This document shows, piece after piece, positions 10,158-17,870 of a DNA stretch of 64,000 bases; positions within the stretch are counted from its first letter, which is position 1; each line of letters begins with the position of its first letter. The position numbers and the translations under genes are program-made. The DNA is from Hyphomicrobiales bacterium. Lineage in GTDB: Bacteria > Pseudomonadota > Alphaproteobacteria > Rhizobiales > Methyloligellaceae. The stretch lies in the NCBI GenBank assembly GCA_028280515.1, contig JANQLP010000056.1:1-64000 (forward strand), read 5' to 3'. Under the pieces are notes generated by a model. The model was not told the DNA's origin. It saw only the letters and a list, made by a program, of their open reading frames with translations, and searched no databases.

Positions 10158-10564
10158 GCTCGATTGCTCGGTTTACCTGCCATGTTCAAATGCATGCGAG
10201 TTCTGGGTGGCGGGCCATGCCGGACCCTAACTTCTCAATCTCCATCAAGCTCTGAACCAAGGTCAGACATGCTGAATTGTCCAATTGGCGGGAGACAACC
10301 GACAGGTAGTTTGCTGGTTTTGCTTGGCTTTCGAAGGGCGTGTCAGAAACAGAGGAAAAGATCTCGCTGCTGGCAGATCTCAACCTGCAGGCTGGGGCTT
10401 TGAATCTTGAACGGAGATGAAGGCTAGCCGCTCTCTACACAGCTTCAGAATCATCATAATTGTTATGTAAAGTGTATAGTTACGACGGCATACCGCTGCA
10501 AAGAAACTCGAAAAGCAGGCGTGCCCAGCAGACCCCCACCCTGGCCATCTCATAAATGCGGCAA
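10158..10564. other. Intergenic region, convergent
   Basis: About 400 bp lie between the peptidase gene and the 3' end of the small XRE gene. An AT-rich patch near 10455-10485 stands out, but no gene or clear hairpin terminator was recognised. Confidence 0.4.
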
Positions 10565-10768
10565 TCACTTCAGCAACTCAAAGGGCTCAACTTCAAGCGT
10601 TTGGGCAATCCTCTCCAGCGACGTGACCGTGGGATTACGCACGCCCCTCTCAATTCCACTGATATAGGTCCGATGTAGGCCGCATTCGAAGGCCAGTTCT
10701 TCCTGGGACCAGCCCTTCGTCTCCCGGTATCGGCGCACATTGAGCCCGACCTGCTTGCGGATATCCAT
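10565..10768 (-). CDS. Small XRE regulator resembling R-M controller (C) proteins
   Basis: This 67-residue protein is essentially one helix-turn-helix domain: RRYRETKGWSQEELAFECGL, then HRTYISGIERGVRNPTVTSL, ending EVEPFELLK. That size and plan match C proteins, which time expression of restriction genes, as well as other minimal XRE repressors. It is divergent from an Mrr-like nuclease gene. The intervening DNA holds GACT-NNN-AGTC symmetry like a C-box, which supports the controller interpretation. Classical C genes usually run in the same direction as R, so the divergent order is unusual. Confidence 0.8.
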   Translation of the reverse strand: MDIRKQVGLNVRRYRETKGWSQEELAFECGLHRTYISGIERGVRNPTVTSLERIAQTLEVEPFELLK

Positions 10769-10784
10769 GGGCCGAAGCAGGCGG

Positions 10785-10818
10785 GACTGCAGACTTTTGA
10801 TCTACAGACTATGAGTCT
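10785..10818. promoter_or_regulatory. C-box-like operator
   Basis: The intergenic DNA contains the perfect inverted repeat AGACT-ATG-AGTCT at 10806-10818. A second GACT and a CAGACT lie at 10785-10795, with the CAGACT element repeated 15 bp later. The GACT-N3-AGTC layout resembles the operators of restriction controller proteins. It sits between the controller start at 10768 and the nuclease start at 10862, so it could serve both promoters. Confidence 0.5.
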
Positions 10819-10828
10819 CATTTTCGTT

Positions 10829-10858
10829 GACTTCCTTGGCCAAGCAAGCGTGTCTTGG
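10829..10858 (+). repeat. Dispersed island repeat, copy 1
   Basis: GACTTCC, then TTGGCCAAGCAAGCGTG, then a TTGG end. It matches copies at 14514 and 14819 and lies directly before the probable start of the Mrr-like nuclease. Confidence 0.5.
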
Positions 10859-10861
10859 GCT

Positions 10862-11818
10862 ATGCAAATGGCGCCGACATCGCAGCAGCCGCCTATCGAG
10901 GCCTCATCGGCGAAGTTCATCAAACTCGGCGAAGCCGGCGCGTGGAACGAGCTGTGCATTGACGACGGTACGCTGCGGCTTGCCTACGACGACGTGCCTC
11001 ATGAGATGGCGCTCGCCAGCGACCGGGCGGGCATCCGGAAGATCTATGCCGACCTTGGCCACACGGCGGGAACCGCATCAGACCATGCCCGCCAAGTCCT
11101 CGACTTCTATCATGCCCCAGCGGATACCGTGTGGATCACCTTTTACAAAGGTCTGCTGTGGTGGTGCCGAGCCAAACTCGGGGTGGAGTTCTTGGGCCTG
11201 GGTCGGGATGGCGCTTCACAAGGCAGCCGACTTCGCCGGACTGAAGATGGTTGGCACAGCGCAAGTCTCGACGGCGTGCCGTTACGCCAGCGAGAACTCA
11301 GCGGCAAACTAACCAAAACCGCTGCCTACCAGGGAACAATATGCGATGTCGACGCCGTTAACTATCTGATCGCGAAAATCAACGATGAGGATTTGCCGGT
11401 CGTCGCACAGGCTAAGGCCGCCAGGGCGACAAGCCTTGCCGCGATCGAGTCTTTGATCACGCACCTAACCTGGCGGGACTTCGAGATTCTGGTTGACCTT
11501 ATCTTTGCCCAAAGCGGCTGGCGCCGGATCGGTGAGGCCGGCGGCGCCCAAAAGACCGTCGACATCGAACTTGAACTCCCCAGCACCGGTGAGCACGCGT
11601 TTGTTCAGGTGAAGTCGGCAACCGGACAGAGCCAACTCAATGACTACATTGAGCGAATGGACGAAGTCCCCGGCGCCCGAATGTTCTACGCCTATCACAC
11701 TGCATCCGAACCCCTCACGGTCGACGATGCCCGGGTAACATTGGTCGGGCCTGAGCATCTCTCTGAGCTCGCCCTGGATGCTGGGCTGTTCAATTGGCTG
11801 ATCCAAAAGGTCGGCTGA
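10862..11818 (+). CDS. Mrr-like PD-(D/E)xK restriction endonuclease
   Basis: The 318-residue protein ends in a restriction-endonuclease-fold domain. WRDFEILVDLIFAQSGWRR is the helix before the active site, followed by D234 in VDIEL and the Q-x-K pair Q249/K251 in FVQVKSA. The N-terminal 190 residues are of unknown function and may recognise DNA. I place the start at 10862 because the in-frame ATG at 10811 lies inside the C-box palindrome and the intervening bases are a repeat that is non-coding elsewhere. The gene is divergent from the small controller. Whether it acts on unmodified DNA (type II) or modified DNA (type IV) cannot be told. Confidence 0.75.
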   Translation: MQMAPTSQQPPIEASSAKFIKLGEAGAWNELCIDDGTLRLAYDDVPHEMALASDRAGIRKIYADLGHTAGTASDHARQVLDFYHAPADTVWITFYKGLLWWCRAKLGVEFLGLGRDGASQGSRLRRTEDGWHSASLDGVPLRQRELSGKLTKTAAYQGTICDVDAVNYLIAKINDEDLPVVAQAKAARATSLAAIESLITHLTWRDFEILVDLIFAQSGWRRIGEAGGAQKTVDIELELPSTGEHAFVQVKSATGQSQLNDYIERMDEVPGARMFYAYHTASEPLTVDDARVTLVGPEHLSELALDAGLFNWLIQKVG

Positions 11819-12179
11819 CGGACGTCAGCGCGCACAAGCGCCAAGATTAAAGAGACTGACCGACTTTGCCTCAAAACCGGACCTGCCAAGGGATCCCCGA
11901 ACCCGCAGAGTTGTCTTTTGTCTCAAAGACTTACGATTATCTCAGGGCTTGAAAATGATCGGCCTTTGAACCATATTACATTTACCTGAGTTGAGACCCT
12001 GCCGGGGTGCCGGTGGCATCTAGGGTGATCCGATACGGCGGGGATGTAGGCTCAAAGTGAGGGCGTGACGCCTGATGGGTTCGTGCCAACCGCGTGGCGG
12101 AAGGCGCGATGGTAACCATCAAGGGGTCGCGCCTTAAGTTTTTCGGACGCGGCTCCTTAGCTCACAGGAGTCCGTATCC
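11819..12179. other. Intergenic region before methyltransferase
   Basis: 360 bp without a recognisable gene. A clear ribosome site (AGGAG at 12166-12170) marks the downstream start. The promoter for the methyltransferase-DUF5681 operon probably lies here, but no element was pinned down. Confidence 0.4.
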
Positions 12180-13526
12180 ATGGACAACCTCTCACTTTGC
12201 TATCGCAACCTCACGTCGCTGCGGTCGCGGGCAACCAACCCGCGAACCCATAGCGACAAACAGATCCAGCAGCTCGCTGCGAGTATCGAAGAGTTCGGCT
12301 TTGTGAACCCGGTCCTCATCGATAACGACAACGTCATCGTCGCCGGCCACGGCCGTGCCGAGGCCGCCAAGCTGCTCGACATTAAAAAGGTACCAACAAT
12401 CCGTATCGAGGATCTGACCCCAGACCAGATCCGCGCCTACGTTATTGCCGACAATAAGCTCGCGCTGAACGCCGGCTGGGACGACGATCTGCTGGGTATC
12501 GAGCTCGGCTATCTCTCCGATCTCGATATCGAAATCGACCCGACCATCACCGGCTTCGAGATGGCCGAGATCGATATCCTGATCGGCGATCTCGGTGCTG
12601 AGGACGAAGAGGTCGATGACCCCGCGGATGTCATACCTGAACCCGAAGCCGGTCCGAACGTCACACGGCCGGGCGACATCTGGACTATCGGCGGTAAGCA
12701 CCGGCTCATTTGCGGAGACGCGACCGATCCCGTTACGTATGCGCGCCTTCTCGACGGCGATAAGGCGCAGATTATCTTTACCGATCCGCCCTATAACGTA
12801 CCGATCGACGGTCATGTCAGCGGCCTCGGCAAGGTTAAGCACCGCGAGTTCGCCATGGCATCAGGCGAGATGTCGAGCACCGAGTTCGAGGGCTTTTTGG
12901 CGACCGTATTTGCCAACCTGGTCGGCGCCAGCGCCGACGGGTCGGTCCATTTTATCTGTATAGACTGGCGTCACCTCGGGGAGGTCCTGACCGCCGGGGC
13001 CAAAGTCTATACCGAACTCAAAAATCTCTGCGTATGGGCGAAGACCAACGGCGGCATGGGGTCGCTCTATCGGTCCCAGCACGAGCTTGTCTTCGTGTTT
13101 AAGAACGGCACGGCCCCGCATATCAATAATGTCGAGCTCGGCCGGCACGGACGATCACGGACAAACGTCTGGACCTATCCCGGCGCCAACGCGTTAGGCG
13201 CCAATCGGCAGGAAGATCTCGCCATGCACCCGACGGTGAAGCCCGTCGGCCTTGTCGCCGACGCAATCCTTGATTGCTCGCGGCGCCGTGACATTGTTCT
13301 TGACGCCTTTACGGGCAGCGGCACGACGCTTATCGCCGCGGCCCGGACCGGCCGGCGCGGCTACGGCATCGAGATCGATCCCGGCTATTGCGATGTCACC
13401 ATCAAACGCCTCGCCAAGGTCGCCGGCCTTAACGCCGTTCACGCCGAGACCGGTCGTACCTTCGATGAGATCAGGGCCGAACGCGCCCAGGAACCCGAGG
13501 AGGCGGCCGATGAGCAAGAACTATGA
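12180..13526 (+). CDS. ParB-domain/DNA methyltransferase fusion
   Basis: This 448-residue protein has two parts. Residues 1-120 are a ParB/Sulfiredoxin-type domain (NPRTHSDKQIQQLAASIEEF, then VIVAGHGRAEAAKLL). Residues 160-430 are an N6/N4 amino-DNA methyltransferase with the permuted beta-class order: catalytic DPPY at 202-205 comes before the AdoMet motif FTGSGTT at about 377. Such fusions are common on phages and integrated elements and usually methylate adenine in short motifs. AGGAG nine bases upstream supports the start. The last 17 bases overlap the DUF5681 gene, so the three genes are co-translated. It could also protect DNA against the Mrr-like nuclease upstream. Confidence 0.9.
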   Translation: MDNLSLCYRNLTSLRSRATNPRTHSDKQIQQLAASIEEFGFVNPVLIDNDNVIVAGHGRAEAAKLLDIKKVPTIRIEDLTPDQIRAYVIADNKLALNAGWDDDLLGIELGYLSDLDIEIDPTITGFEMAEIDILIGDLGAEDEEVDDPADVIPEPEAGPNVTRPGDIWTIGGKHRLICGDATDPVTYARLLDGDKAQIIFTDPPYNVPIDGHVSGLGKVKHREFAMASGEMSSTEFEGFLATVFANLVGASADGSVHFICIDWRHLGEVLTAGAKVYTELKNLCVWAKTNGGMGSLYRSQHELVFVFKNGTAPHINNVELGRHGRSRTNVWTYPGANALGANRQEDLAMHPTVKPVGLVADAILDCSRRRDIVLDAFTGSGTTLIAAARTGRRGYGIEIDPGYCDVTIKRLAKVAGLNAVHAETGRTFDEIRAERAQEPEEAADEQEL

Positions 13527-13962
13527 GGTCGGTCGCGGAAAGCCGCCGAAGGAATACCAGTTCAGAAAGGGGAAATCCGGCAACCCCAGCGGCAGGCCAC
13601 CAAACACCAAGCGCAGCCCCATCGATGTTGCCGCCATCCTCGATGGGCCGGTGACTGTTAGTAAAGGCGGTACGACAGAGACGATGTCGGCCTTTGAAGC
13701 GCGGGTAAGGAACCTCGCGCGCCGGGCTATCAAGGACGCCCATACCAAGTCAGCGATCGAGTTCGTTAAGCTGTGCGTGAAGTATGACGCCCTCAACCAC
13801 AAGAAACCCTTGTTCAGCAACATCCTCACGTTGCCGAAGGGCTGGGAGATGGACGAGTTTCTGGCCATGCTTGAACGCTACGGGCCACCGCCGTGGCCGG
13901 GCGAGCGAACCGGCCTGACCAAATCCCTTGAAGCTGAACTGAGGAAGCGGGGTGAGCTATGA
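13510..13962 (+). CDS. DUF5681-domain protein 1
   Basis: This 150-residue protein starts with the DUF5681 signature, a basic glycine-rich segment (YQFRKGKSGNPSGRPPNTKR) expected to touch DNA. A helical region follows (FEARVRNLARRAIKDAHTKS). The ATG at 13510 has GAGGAGG upstream and overlaps the methyltransferase end. The family is usually found beside ParB-methylase fusions or terminase genes in phage-derived islands. Function is not established, though a small-terminase-like or DNA-packaging adaptor role has been suggested by context. Confidence 0.75.
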   Translation: MSKNYEVGRGKPPKEYQFRKGKSGNPSGRPPNTKRSPIDVAAILDGPVTVSKGGTTETMSAFEARVRNLARRAIKDAHTKSAIEFVKLCVKYDALNHKKPLFSNILTLPKGWEMDEFLAMLERYGPPPWPGERTGLTKSLEAELRKRGEL

Positions 13963-14459
13963 CTAACCACCGAAAAGAGGATGACCCGCCAACGCCGGAG
14001 GGCAACGACGACAGTGGCGGTTATAGGAAGCCCCCAAAAGCGACCCGGTTCAAGAAAGGACAGTCAGGCAACGGGAAGGGCCGGCCCAAGGGCGCCAAGG
14101 GGCACAAGGCGATCGTCCAAGAGATCGCCAACGAGCTACACGATGTCGGCATTGAAGGCCTACCGTCCCGGCTGTCGACGCTTGAGCTTGTGCTGGTCAC
14201 GCTCCGCAACCGTGCGATGGCGAGTGATCTGACGGCGAGTCGTTTTGTCGATGACGTGCTGAGCCGCTACGGCAACCGAGAGATCGATAAGCAAGGCGGC
14301 TATATGATCTCACCTGAGGCGATCCCCGTGAAGGACTGGATCGCTAGAGAGGAAGCCAAAAACGCCAGAGTAGACCGCGAGATGACCGCCTACGGGACCG
14401 CGGATTACAGCGAATACCTACGCTTGAAGGAGGAGGACGAAAAGAAGAAGGCAGGCTAA
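13959..14459 (+). CDS. DUF5681-domain protein 2
   Basis: This 166-residue paralogue of the preceding protein again opens with the DUF5681 motif (TRFKKGQSGNGKGRPKGAKG) but diverges afterwards and ends in a charged tail. It is coupled to its neighbour by ATGA overlap. Two adjacent DUF5681 genes with different C-terminal halves suggest duplication followed by specialisation. No enzyme motif is visible. Confidence 0.72.
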   Translation: MTNHRKEDDPPTPEGNDDSGGYRKPPKATRFKKGQSGNGKGRPKGAKGHKAIVQEIANELHDVGIEGLPSRLSTLELVLVTLRNRAMASDLTASRFVDDVLSRYGNREIDKQGGYMISPEAIPVKDWIAREEAKNARVDREMTAYGTADYSEYLRLKEEDEKKKAG

Positions 14460-14475
14460 GGCGCTCCGCCAGGGT

Positions 14476-14510
14476 CACGTTCCGGGTCAGCGTCGCTGAT
14501 CCGGAACGTG
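14476..14510. repeat. Long inverted repeat after DUF5681 operon
   Basis: Arms CACGTTCCGG-GTCAGCG and CGCTGAT-CCGGAACGTG pair over about 15-17 positions with one G/T wobble and a very short loop. It lies 17 bp after the DUF5681 stop. There is no T-tract, so it is a structured RNA end or protein site rather than a clear intrinsic terminator. Confidence 0.5.
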
Positions 14511-14513
14511 CTG

Positions 14514-14542
14514 GACTTCCCGGGCAAAGCAAGCGTCATTGG
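14514..14542 (+). repeat. Dispersed island repeat, copy 2
   Basis: GACTTCC, then GCAAAGCAAGCGT, then TGG end, matching copy 3 at about three quarters or more of positions. It lies 24 bp before the start of a small gene. Confidence 0.55.
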
Positions 14543-14565
14543 TGGCCACATAAAGGAGTGCCACC

Positions 14566-14796
14566 ATGGGCCTGGATCAGCGCGAGATCGTCACGCGACT
14601 GTTCGCGACGGCAACATCGTTTGCCGAAGCGGCGCATGAAGCGTCGTGCGATGGTCAGGCCCACGATGCGAGCGTGGCGCACTATCAAGCGGCGCTGCAC
14701 CGCATTCTGTCGGCCGCGCACGACCTTCAGGTATTGGGTGAGGTCATCGGCGATCTGGTCGAACACACCTCCGATGAGGCCGCCGAACAACCATGA
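14566..14796 (+). CDS. Small hypothetical protein
   Basis: This 76-residue, largely helical acidic protein (MGLDQREIVTRLFATATSFA start) is preceded by an excellent ribosome site, AAAGGAG, at 8 bp. That is the main reason to accept it as real. No family was recognised. It sits between two copies of the island repeat. Confidence 0.6.
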   Translation: MGLDQREIVTRLFATATSFAEAAHEASCDGQAHDASVAHYQAALHRILSAAHDLQVLGEVIGDLVEHTSDEAAEQP

Positions 14797-14818
14797 CATC
14801 GCAATCGCAACGTGACTG

Positions 14819-14847
14819 GACTTCCACCGCAAAGCAAGCGTGCATGG
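14819..14847 (+). repeat. Dispersed island repeat, copy 3
   Basis: GACTTCC, then GCAAAGCAAGCGT, then TGG. It lies 114 bp before the DUF3489 gene and, like copy 2, is preceded by CTG (CTGGACTTCC). Confidence 0.55.
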
Positions 14848-14960
14848 TCTAGCTGAACGCGATCTTCCTCTTCTTAGCGCCCTGCCCGGTGACGCCGGCA
14901 GGGCTCCATCAGGTGACAGCGCCGGTATCCGACCAGCGCATCACTTAAGAGGATCTAACC

Positions 14961-15230
14961 ATGTCATCTGCGACCACCAAAAAGGCCGCCACCTCGCGGA
15001 ATCAATCAGTATCTGACGCCGTCGAGACCAAAACAGACAAGGTCATCAAGCTGCTGCGTCGCAAGAATGGCGCTACCATCGCCGACCTGCAGAAGGCAAC
15101 CGGTTGGCAGGCACACAGCGTCCGCGGGTTCCTGTCGGGCACGTTGAAGAAGCGGATGCGGCTGGCCGTCACTAGTGAAGCCGATGCTAAGGGCATACGC
15201 CGCTACCGTATCGCCCAGGTCGCAAAGTGA
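14961..15230 (+). CDS. DUF3489 protein
   Basis: This 89-residue protein is a winged-helix-like DUF3489 domain: KVIKLLRRKNGATIADLQKA, then TGWQAHSVRGFLSGTLKK. The family is almost always encoded before a DUF2924 gene and a large serine recombinase, as here. It may be an accessory DNA-binding or directionality factor, which is inference from context. AAGAGGA precedes the ATG. The stop overlaps the GTG start of the next gene. Confidence 0.85.
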   Translation: MSSATTKKAATSRNQSVSDAVETKTDKVIKLLRRKNGATIADLQKATGWQAHSVRGFLSGTLKKRMRLAVTSEADAKGIRRYRIAQVAK

Positions 15231-15667
15231 AGCGAGTGCCACAGGTCGAAGTCTCCACGCTTTCTCGCCTCGACCGGGAGGCGCTACTGGATCTATGGCA
15301 ACAGTTCCATGACCGCAAACCACCACTTAATGCCAGTCGCCAGTTTCTTCGGTACTGCCTCGCGTACCGAATTCAAGAGATCGAGCACGGCGGGCTCGGA
15401 CCATCCGTCCGACGTGAACTTCGTCAAATCGCGATCGGTGACACAGTTGCAGCCACTGATCGACGGTCGCGAACTCCTATCAGGCCAGGAACACGATTGC
15501 TCCGCACATGGCAAGGCCGGACCTATGAGGTGAGCGTTGCCGAGGACGGATTTGTGCTCGACGGCGAACGCTACCGATCGCTCTCTGCGGTGGCGCGGGC
15601 GATCACTGGCACTCGGTGGAACGGCTGGACATTCTTCGGCATCAAACAGCCTGCCAATGGCGCATAG
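15227..15667 (+). CDS. DUF2924 protein
   Basis: This 146-residue protein starts at a GTG overlapping the DUF3489 stop (GTGA). The sequence shows DUF2924 features: LDREALLDLWQQFHDRKPP, the YRIQEIEHGGL segment, then RTWQGRTYEVSVAEDGFVLD and the C-terminal ITGTRWNGWTFFGI. Biochemical function is unknown. It is part of the conserved triad with DUF3489 and the serine recombinase and is likely needed for element mobility. Eleven bases separate its stop from the recombinase ATG. Confidence 0.87.
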   Translation: MKRVPQVEVSTLSRLDREALLDLWQQFHDRKPPLNASRQFLRYCLAYRIQEIEHGGLGPSVRRELRQIAIGDTVAATDRRSRTPIRPGTRLLRTWQGRTYEVSVAEDGFVLDGERYRSLSAVARAITGTRWNGWTFFGIKQPANGA

Positions 15668-15677
15668 AGGGTACCCG

Positions 15678-17402
15678 ATGGCCACGAAACGTCCCAAGGC
15701 AACATGTGCCATCTACACCCGAAAATCCTCCGAAGAGGGCCTTGATCAAGCGTTCAACTCGCTCGACGCCCAGCGTGAGGCAGGTGAGGCATTCGTTAGC
15801 AGCCAACGACACGAGGGCTGGGCAGTTCTGCCCGACCGCTATGACGATGGTGGCATCTCGGGCGCGACGATGGAACGACCGGCCCTGAGGCGGCTGCTAT
15901 CAGACATCGAGGCCGGCACGATCAACGTCGTTGTGGTCTACAAGGTCGACCGCCTGACACGCTCTCTTTCGGACTTTGCCAAGATGATCGAAATCTTCGA
16001 CCGCCACGAAGTATCTTTCGTCTCGGTCACCCAGCAGTTCAACACAACGACGTCCATGGGACGGTTGACCCTCAACGTGCTGCTGTCTTTCGCCCAGTTC
16101 GAGCGTGAGGTCACCGGCGAGCGCATAAGGGACAAGATCAAGGCGTCGAAGAAGAAAGGTATGTGGATGGGCGGAAGGCCACCACTTGGCTTTGACGTCG
16201 TCGATCGCAAACTGGTCATCAACCCAGACGAAGCCAAGTCAGTGCGGTGGATCTTCAGGCGTTACCTTGAGGTGCGCGCCATCAATCGCCTACATACCGA
16301 CGTCGTACGCCAAGATATCACCTTGAAAATCTACGTGAGCAAAGCAGGCCGCCGGTCAGGTGGTGAACCATTCGGGCGCTCCGCCCTACACCGAATGTTG
16401 GGTAATCACCTCTACGTCGGCGAGGTCGCACACAACGGCAGCGTCTACCCAGGCGAGCACGATGGTATCATTGATCGTGAACTCTGGGATCGGGTCCAGA
16501 CCGCGCTTGAGAAGCAAAGGCGCGAACGATACAACGGCACCTCAACGAAGGAGGTCAGTCTGCTGAAGGGGCTGGTCTATGATGATGCAGACCGTCGGCT
16601 TACACCTGCCCATGCCACCAAGAACGGCAAGCGCTACCGTTACTATGTCTCAAGTCACACCATCAATGGAGCCCGCGTCAAAGCGACTGATCAGACTTGG
16701 CGTATCCCGGCTTATGAAATCGAGCAGCTTGTTGTCAGCGAGATCAAGCGCTTTCTGCTAGACCGAGACAAGCTTTACGACGTCTTCAAGACTCATGACC
16801 CATCGTTTGCCGGTACCGAGGCAGCGTACAGCCATCTAGGGAGCCTCGCCGATGGATGGGACGAGCACGTTCAGCACGACCAGCGCATCATTCTTAATCG
16901 CCTATTGTCGCGCATCGTTGTGGACCATGAGAGCGTTGAGATTCAGGTGCATCCCTCCGCCATAGTCGAAGCCGTTCGCCACGGGGCCGCGAGTCTTCTT
17001 GCGAACAGGTCCGAACACCAGGATCAGGAGCCACCGATAGTCGTGTCTTTGCCGGTTCGCCTCACGCGGCGAGGTAGAGAACTCAAGCTCTTGCTCGGTA
17101 ACGATGTCGAACCGCGCACCAGCCCGGACCCCGAGCTCATGAAGGCCGTGGCGCAGGCCCATCGCTGGCTTGACCTCCTTCTGTCCGGAAAGGTCGCATC
17201 AATCAGAGAGCTGTCACGCCGTGAGGGTGATCGGGAGCGTCACATCGGCCAGCATCTCAGGCTTGCCTTCCTCGCCCCCGACATAATTGAGGCGATCCTC
17301 GAAGGCCGGCAACCGTCGATACTAACAGCCGAGCAACTCATCAGGACGGACCCGCCACTCGACTGGGACGAGCAACGACGTCTGCTGGGGTTTGCAGTCT
17401 GA
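15678..17402 (+). CDS. Large serine recombinase
   Basis: This 574-residue site-specific recombinase is the likely mobility enzyme of the island. The N-terminal resolvase domain (about 1-150) has the nucleophile serine S17 in YTRKSS, then KVDRLTRSL and the long helix FAQFEREVTGERIRDKIKAS. The recombinase domain and a zinc-ribbon-like region follow, and the C-terminus is helical. I place the start at 15678, eleven bases after the DUF2924 stop. The target att sites are unknown; the CAGGGAA cluster downstream is a candidate. Confidence 0.92.
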   Translation: MATKRPKATCAIYTRKSSEEGLDQAFNSLDAQREAGEAFVSSQRHEGWAVLPDRYDDGGISGATMERPALRRLLSDIEAGTINVVVVYKVDRLTRSLSDFAKMIEIFDRHEVSFVSVTQQFNTTTSMGRLTLNVLLSFAQFEREVTGERIRDKIKASKKKGMWMGGRPPLGFDVVDRKLVINPDEAKSVRWIFRRYLEVRAINRLHTDVVRQDITLKIYVSKAGRRSGGEPFGRSALHRMLGNHLYVGEVAHNGSVYPGEHDGIIDRELWDRVQTALEKQRRERYNGTSTKEVSLLKGLVYDDADRRLTPAHATKNGKRYRYYVSSHTINGARVKATDQTWRIPAYEIEQLVVSEIKRFLLDRDKLYDVFKTHDPSFAGTEAAYSHLGSLADGWDEHVQHDQRIILNRLLSRIVVDHESVEIQVHPSAIVEAVRHGAASLLANRSEHQDQEPPIVVSLPVRLTRRGRELKLLLGNDVEPRTSPDPELMKAVAQAHRWLDLLLSGKVASIRELSRREGDRERHIGQHLRLAFLAPDIIEAILEGRQPSILTAEQLIRTDPPLDWDEQRRLLGFAV

Positions 17403-17680
17403 AAACCGGCCAAAACTGTTAGCCGATCGATCCAATCCACCATCGTCAACGTCTCAAAGTCCCCCATGAAAGGGGCCTGTCGGAGAATGTCGGGCAGGAC
17501 CGACCATAAGCACGGCGACTCCGCTCTCTCCTCTGAGGTTGCCAGATCAGCGGCCGCGCTAGAATGCGCAGAAGCCGGGCGGTCTCGGACGCCACACATG
17601 GCCCTGCAAAGCGGCGCTTCGTTTCGTAGCCGGAGACTGGCGGTGCGGGCAGTCAGCTGCGAACCCGTCTCTGCGGTGAT

Positions 17681-17870
17681 TTCCCTGTTATCAGGGAAAA
17701 TACAGGGAAACTTCGCGTCTTTTGACCAAAGCGTGGCGTTCGTGACCAGTTTCTCGCAGTTACTTCAAAACGTTAGCAGTGAATTCCCTACGCAACGGAA
17801 CAGGGAAGTTTTTCCATCGAACAGGGAAATTGTCAGATGGATCTGGGAAACATCGTAAGCGTGCAGGGAA
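17681..17870. repeat. CAGGGAA heptamer cluster
   Basis: CAGGGAA occurs at 17692, 17703, 17801, 17822 and 17864, with the inverse TTCCCTG at 17681 and TTCCCT at 17784. The first two form a hairpin, TTCCCTG-TTAT-CAGGGAA. The cluster starts 280 bp after the recombinase stop and ends 70 bp before an IS66 relic. It could be the recombinase attachment region or a structured RNA. Confidence 0.55.

Follow-up and report, generated by a model that had tools for sequence, protein, structure and literature searches.

A start-associated repeat and a structured RNA leader in serine-recombinase islands of Alphaproteobacteria

Start-Associated Sequences are short, non-palindromic repeats of mobile DNA that lie, almost always in one orientation, before the starts of genes from varied families; they are 13 bp long (GGGATAGGAGCCC), typically stand 3-7 bp from the start codon and contain a ribosome-binding core. 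A similar element occurs three times in a serine-recombinase island of a Hyphomicrobiales bacterium, within the 64,000-nucleotide stretch analysed here (contig JANQLP010000056.1, positions 1 to 64,000; hereafter "the window"). The element resembles Start-Associated Sequences in orientation and asymmetry, but it is 32 bp long, ends 16-158 nt before the start (67 of 69 sites), lacks a ribosome-binding core and occurs in many bacterial families; since consensus and spacing disagree, it was not assigned to that class. From its sequence and placement, we consider it somewhat more probable than not that the repeat is a start-associated control element, which would start transcription of the first gene of island units either as a promoter or as an adjacent activator site.

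Structured 5' leaders that hide a ribosome-binding site, whether riboswitch-like or protein-binding, are a known kind of control RNA. The leader that follows the third copy of the element, ahead of a gene of the DUF3489 family, is like them in having two hairpins, a conserved core between these and a paired ribosome-binding site; it differs in that it has no match in Rfam 15 and precedes the DUF3489 gene of a prophage-like operon. A bipartite form is also found in the ECF/EcfG promoter, GGAAC-N16-CGTT with a near-invariant AAC in the -35 box, as described in PMC7083833. The element's GGACT-N16-CRTK fits the same spacing, but GGACT replaces GGAAC, the near-invariant AAC is missing, and conservation also covers the spacer and, beyond CRT, reaches CATGG, so that an EcfG identity was rejected.

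With regard to gene content, the closest described relatives are phage WO of Wolbachia and Acidithiobacillus phage AcaML1, in which, as in the window, a DUF2924 gene adjoins the recombinase. For phage WO this neighbourhood is reported in PMC10299305 and PMC11376236 and is seen in record AB036666. Unlike the window, neither phage has a DUF3489 gene named in its annotation, which is the sole basis of this comparison. According to PMC11342252, DUF2924 partially matches the RAMA DNA-binding domain. In the open-access literature on DUF2924, DUF3489 and serine-recombinase prophage leaders, we found no description of the element, of the leader or of the control of these alphaproteobacterial islands. 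The element offers a sharp marker of the control region in widespread serine-recombinase islands and prophages of Alphaproteobacteria, and the analysis exposes an Rfam-unmatched RNA leader ahead of a DUF3489 gene. The mechanism, once settled, could show what decides whether such islands move.

The repeat and its placement before gene starts

The repeat is real. The pattern GACTTCC...GC(A/C)AAGCAAGCGT...TGG occurs at 10829, 14514 and 14819, always on the + strand; the three copies were already listed in a preliminary description of this DNA, and both the sequence and a scan of the organism's own genome agree with it. Aligned copies of the element begin slightly earlier: copy 1 (10826..10857, 28.3 bits) lies between an XRE controller-type gene and a putative nuclease, copy 2 (14511..14542, 34.8 bits) ahead of a small gene of 76 aa, and copy 3 (14816..14847, 36.6 bits) ahead of the DUF3489 leader and gene. 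Compared with copy 2 over 33 nt, copy 1 has 70% identity and copy 3 has 82%, and the TGG follows GCGT after 4 bases in copy 1 and after 3 bases in copies 2 and 3. Taken alone, the 13-mer core is weak evidence for a repeat, because its 6 matches in the window (at most 2 mismatches; shuffled mean 1.8) were reached by 2 of 100 shuffles. The scan of the whole genome (5.4 Mb) with TGGACTTCCNNNGCAAAGCAAGCGT, allowing at most 3 mismatches, gave 4 forward matches, none in reverse and none in a reversed control. The fourth copy (C178:74006) stands about 10 kb past the window end and belongs to a second, diverged copy of the module, comprising small gene, DUF3489 stretch, DUF2924 and recombinase, with 72% identity to the window module over 2.8 kb. 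In this second module (C178:72506-76924, loci L023 and L079), the DUF3489 frame seems shortened, to 72 aa.

In structure, the element is an asymmetric bipartite 32-mer, CTGGACTTC-N5-CAAAG-N-RAGCRTKCATGG. Across 61 sites, conservation begins at a short A/T stretch (-6 to -4), extends through position 32 and drops off to either side; no site departs from T2, G4, A22 or G23, and 98% have T30. The only mirrored parts are CTT (6-8) and AAG (21-23). An RNA hairpin inside the element was ruled out, as pairable positions do not covary (positions 9 and 20 read CG in 24 sites and CC in 23). Sigma-54 promoters are defined by GG-N10-GC; the element has GG at 3-4, with a GC at 14-15 that is one base too near and another at 23-24 that is too far, and this identity was likewise set aside.

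A motif scan of 299 related genomes found matches in 14, own included (20 matches versus 7 in the reversed control). Sixteen sites lie outside the own genome, and 15 of these were examined for context, L012 being skipped as its stretch is the same as that of L009. Fourteen of the 15 have homologues of DUF3489 and/or DUF2924 in the same locus, downstream of the site and on its strand; L004 is the exception. The genes upstream vary, being a phage terminase, a DUF5681/ParB-methyltransferase pair or a methyltransferase on the opposite strand. In the window and in L007, L024 and L032, a homologous small gene is flanked by two copies about 300 bp apart. A sequence-only model built from 21 sites had matches at E <= 0.05 in 38 of the 385 class genomes searched; the weaker of these matches are partly chance, as several of their loci have no module gene. 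In a phylum-wide draw of 299 genomes, matches at E <= 0.001 were confined to three, which besides the own genome were a member of its order and a member of its class, so that this draw gave no strong match outside the class. The exact pattern had no match in the viral contigs scanned and one in the genome contigs scanned, in a metagenome-assembled genome of Kiloniellaceae.

Placement was also tested on loci picked without the motif. The Pfam model finds DUF2924 in 71 of the 385 class genomes, and the best 80 DUF2924 loci by E-value, the window's own excluded, served as test loci (57 genomes); apparently only one of the 21 model sites (L023) is among them, as L079. With both strands of 943 kb searched, a 32-column matrix gave 57 matches at score >= 13, and the reversed control gave none. 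Fifty-two of the 57 lie within 3 kb upstream of DUF2924 on the same strand, a search space of 206 kb, and are spread over 49 of the 80 loci and 35 of the 57 genomes; the remaining 1,680 kb held five matches, in L084, L129, L122, L055 and L063. The L084 match is the site ahead of the nuclease homologue of genome G498, and that of L129 lies 2447 bp past the DUF2924 start and 47 bp ahead of the recombinase reading frame itself. Thus, the element, for which the preliminary description had proposed a search in related islands, is neither absent from homologous islands nor randomly placed in them.

Spacing was read from 70 sites: those of the window, those within 3 kb upstream of DUF2924 on its strand at the 80 loci, and those of 17 additional loci. 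Chosen in this way, they are no strand test by themselves. The next start, assigned at 69 of them, follows at 16-58 nt in 31 cases, at 71-158 nt in 36 and beyond 180 nt in two (copy 1 and one site in L075), which are regarded as misassigned starts. The longer of the two main spacings is found mostly where the leader intervenes. Overall, the element stands ahead of the first gene of a (small gene)-DUF3489-DUF2924-serine recombinase unit. On a plasmid of Eleftheria terrae (Betaproteobacteria; L155 4579-6293), a full or half copy precedes each of four consecutive genes, and in AcaML1 a weak copy stands directly ahead of DUF2924 (score 9.9 with a refined matrix whose maximum is 46.1). In L075, the second element copy is separated from the DUF3489 leader by a transposase-like frame, presumably IS110-like.

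The structured leader ahead of DUF3489

Between copy 3 and the DUF3489 gene (14961..15230, +, 3.2e-25) lies a 113-nt leader (14848..14960, +). It is a structured 5' untranslated region with covariation and a sequestered ribosome-binding site, a conserved RNA structure that the preliminary description had missed. Hairpin P2 (14879..14904) and hairpin P3 (14919..14939) enclose a conserved core, and a UCCUCUU stretch 5' of P2 (14866..14872) pairs with AAGAGGA (14947..14953), the ribosome-binding-site stretch of DUF3489. A covariance model was trained on 26 leaders and searched against 98 sources at E <= 0.05; it yielded 44 matches, of which 26 are the training sequences, which match by construction (the window's leader, at 63.7 bits, among them), and 18 are further. 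Neither the window nor the loci of 20 relatives gave an Rfam 15 match for the leader. In L015 and L016, which are among the 18, the leader stands between the small gene and DUF3489, which indicates that the leader accompanies DUF3489, and the element the beginning of the unit.

Several measures support the fold, and the leader shows the two-sided base-pair changes by which cis-regulatory structured RNAs are recognised. In the alignment, 76.1% of cells pair versus 62.2% in shuffles (reached by 0 of 500), a count that leans towards structure, as do all the pairing counts, since the alignment was fitted to it. For covariation, shuffles scored 0.152 and none of 500 reached the observed 0.362; sliding gave 0.07-0.12. 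Weaker measures are the two-sided changes in 12 of 16 pairs (9 of 500 shuffles reach this) and the 38 further pair types (13 of 500). P3 is strong, with 86.3% of cells paired and two-sided changes in 7 of 8 pairs over 44 sequences, and P2 is weaker (66.7%, 5 of 8). RNAalifold recovered 6 pairs, all in P3, from the fitted alignment (-2.95 kcal/mol) and P3 plus a three-pair helix only from a trimmed alignment; from the untrimmed leader alignment it returned no structure. The ribosome-binding tail pairs more stably with the core, or with the stretch 5' of P2, when both come from one leader than when partners are swapped between leaders (0 of 5000 permutations each, 44 leaders).

Explanations for the element

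The fixed strand, the confined distances to starts, the bipartite form of low symmetry and the varied downstream gene families together point to a site at which transcription is started or controlled; a symmetric site, such as that of a dimeric repressor or a recombinase, would look different. According to the preferred model, the 32-bp site (CTGGACT, 14 bp, AGCRTnnnTG) would be read as double-stranded DNA by a factor common to the islands, and transcription would start at the element. The units switched on would be the small gene, the operon of DUF3489, DUF2924 and serine recombinase, and probably the nuclease gene. After copy 3, a second layer may follow, in which the leader stems hide the ribosome-binding site of DUF3489, whose translation would probably stay low until something opens the fold. 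The preliminary description had suggested that island genes share a promoter or leader element; strand and place before starts in many genomes favour this for copies 2 and 3, and copy 1 fits less well. Telling a promoter from an activator site or an RNA-level site hinges on transcript ends.

A number of observations weigh against transcription starting at the element. The GCAAAG middle part is conserved in the strong set, which is unusual for a promoter spacer, and a search of 10500-15000 for sigma-70 promoters (TTGACA, 16-18 nt, TATAAT-like) found a single match, at 11949, and none at the copies. Thirty-one of the 80 DUF2924 loci have no site above threshold; some of these have a weaker site where the element usually lies, and others have nothing. 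The element was also not found in two phage WO stretches with DUF2924 (from four WO records matched), nor ahead of the nuclease homologue of L136, one of three strong homologues. Finally, upstream hairpins of terminator type show no significant enrichment (6 of 70 sites, versus a shuffled mean of 2.4 and maximum of 6). In favour of initiation at the element, strong upstream hairpins abut three sites, in L009, in L070 and at copy 2, where a 17-bp inverted repeat (14476..14510) that ends at the copy is a possible terminator of a DUF5681 gene, without a T run.

Some of these features would suit an operator or an RNA-level processivity site in the 5' leader, of which phage put or ops sites are examples, acting on transcription from further upstream. 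This alternative is appreciably less probable than initiation at the element, while still the foremost of its competitors: the element is sense-oriented ahead of the first gene and often followed by a structured leader, its middle part is conserved, and a -10 box is not recognisable. It is countered by the lack of a conserved promoter box at a fixed distance upstream, where there is just the short A/T stretch, by some sites that lie only 16 nt from the start codon, by a strong terminator-like hairpin with a T run that ends beside the site in L009, and by element positions that do not pair. More speculatively, and with a rather low probability in our estimate, element and leader could form one undescribed two-layer switch, in which DUF3489 or a DUF2924/RAMA-like protein would read the element, perhaps depending on methylation by the island's ParB-methyltransferase, while the leader gates DUF3489 translation and the epigenetic state of the island sets its mobility. 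DUF3489 is guessed to be winged-helix-like; a structure-database search for DUF3489 and DUF2924 found no significant solved structure.

The preliminary description had also raised a recombination site, and a role in integration or cassette swapping by the serine recombinase now appears unlikely. Its best argument is that homology between unit copies of the same genome begins at the element or within 12 bp of it in L091/L104, L127/L134, L072/L074 and L093/L095; in others, such as L065/L067, L100/L102 and L114/L119, it runs further upstream, and this pattern, seen in several pairs and not in others, fits modular exchange at unit borders. The flanking of the small gene by two copies points the same way, as does the L122 copy, 252 bp after the recombinase stop. 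That copy, however, is the sole one within 1 kb after the recombinase stop among 72 loci with a recombinase-like frame (in 70 of which 500 bp or more follow the stop), and the DNA around it resembles the L134 upstream region, as though another unit started there. Serine integrase attachment sites consist of two inverted half-sites flanking the crossover point, a form that the element, with its mirror limited to CTT/AAG, does not have. Copy 1 and the Eleftheria copies precede other genes. An attachment site would also lie at the boundary of the integrated element; in many loci, the copies follow TerL, DUF5681 or methyltransferase genes. The 3' boundary of phage WO is placed just after the integrase, in a record that notes the boundary as unclear, and according to PMC9203015 the recombinase itself, together with the lysis module, borders WO-like prophages outside Anaplasmataceae.

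The least probable reading takes the element for a coding relic, namely the last part of a small protein that has an LDFxxxxSVHG-like peptide at its C terminus. By eye, the frame does read LDFxxKASV-like peptides, and in L065, L067 and AcaML1 (gp5, L150) a small open reading frame just 5' of DUF2924 seems to cross the element, with an LDL/LDF/LGF-like peptide near its end. Against this, 6 of 70 sites, the fourth copy of the own genome among them, have an in-frame stop within the element, the frame is open at 36 of 70 versus 30 and 27 for the other frames, AGC is retained at 68 of 70 and several third codon positions are near-invariant. Coding constraint on the element was ruled out on these grounds, and the relic is largely refuted.

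Copy 1 and neighbouring genes

The support for copy 1 as a control element is weaker than for copies 2 and 3, because the right half differs in L138 and L137 and because L136 lacks the element ahead of its nuclease homologue. Homologues of the nuclease occur in 7 of 289 class genomes, own included, and the left block of copy 1 recurs ahead of two of the three strong ones (L138, L137); the L136 contig has a lone element 17 kb from its homologue. The XRE-nuclease pairs of genomes G498 (L138) and G457 (L137) share with the window a near-identical intergenic controller-box-like stretch (CTACAGACTATGAGTC in the window), after which CTGGACTT(C/G) is common to all three. In L138, the frame through the element contains a stop, so the element is non-coding there. 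As for the preliminary description's placement of copy 1 just upstream of the nuclease start, the copy is indeed 5' of the in-frame ATGs at 10862 and 10868, yet inside the mechanical open reading frame 10811..11818 (+). That frame has no Pfam match and was read as a nuclease from its motifs; its start is probably 10862 or 10868. The XRE gene (10565..10768, - strand) has 'Control_protein' as its top PADLOC match (4.9e-20), and tandem controller-box-like operators lie at 10791..10818, the second being AGACTATGAGTCT at 10806-10818, 7 bp 5' of copy 1. Copy 1 and its counterparts in L137 and L138 all have such operators on their 5' side, a position that would be expected if the left block were a -35-like box. 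The 'Control_protein'-like gene and the putative nuclease may form an undescribed restriction-type pair.

The island gene set in the window comprises the XRE controller-type gene, the putative nuclease, a ParB-methyltransferase, two DUF5681 genes, the small gene, DUF3489, DUF2924 and the large serine recombinase, and type I restriction genes lie to its left. The small gene after copy 2 (14566..14796, +) has no match in Pfam, PHROG or PADLOC, and its homologues are equally placed in L023, L024, L007 and L032. DUF2924 (15227..15667, +) was identified at 3.4e-43, with RAMA below the cut-off, and the recombinase (15678..17402, +) matches the integrase family phrog_95 at 2e-101. At 17633-17699, and also 3' of the recombinase in a number of other loci, repeats of the types GAGAC...GTCTC and CCCTGTT...AACAGGG are seen by eye; these repeats beyond the recombinase stop are a possible attachment or control site.

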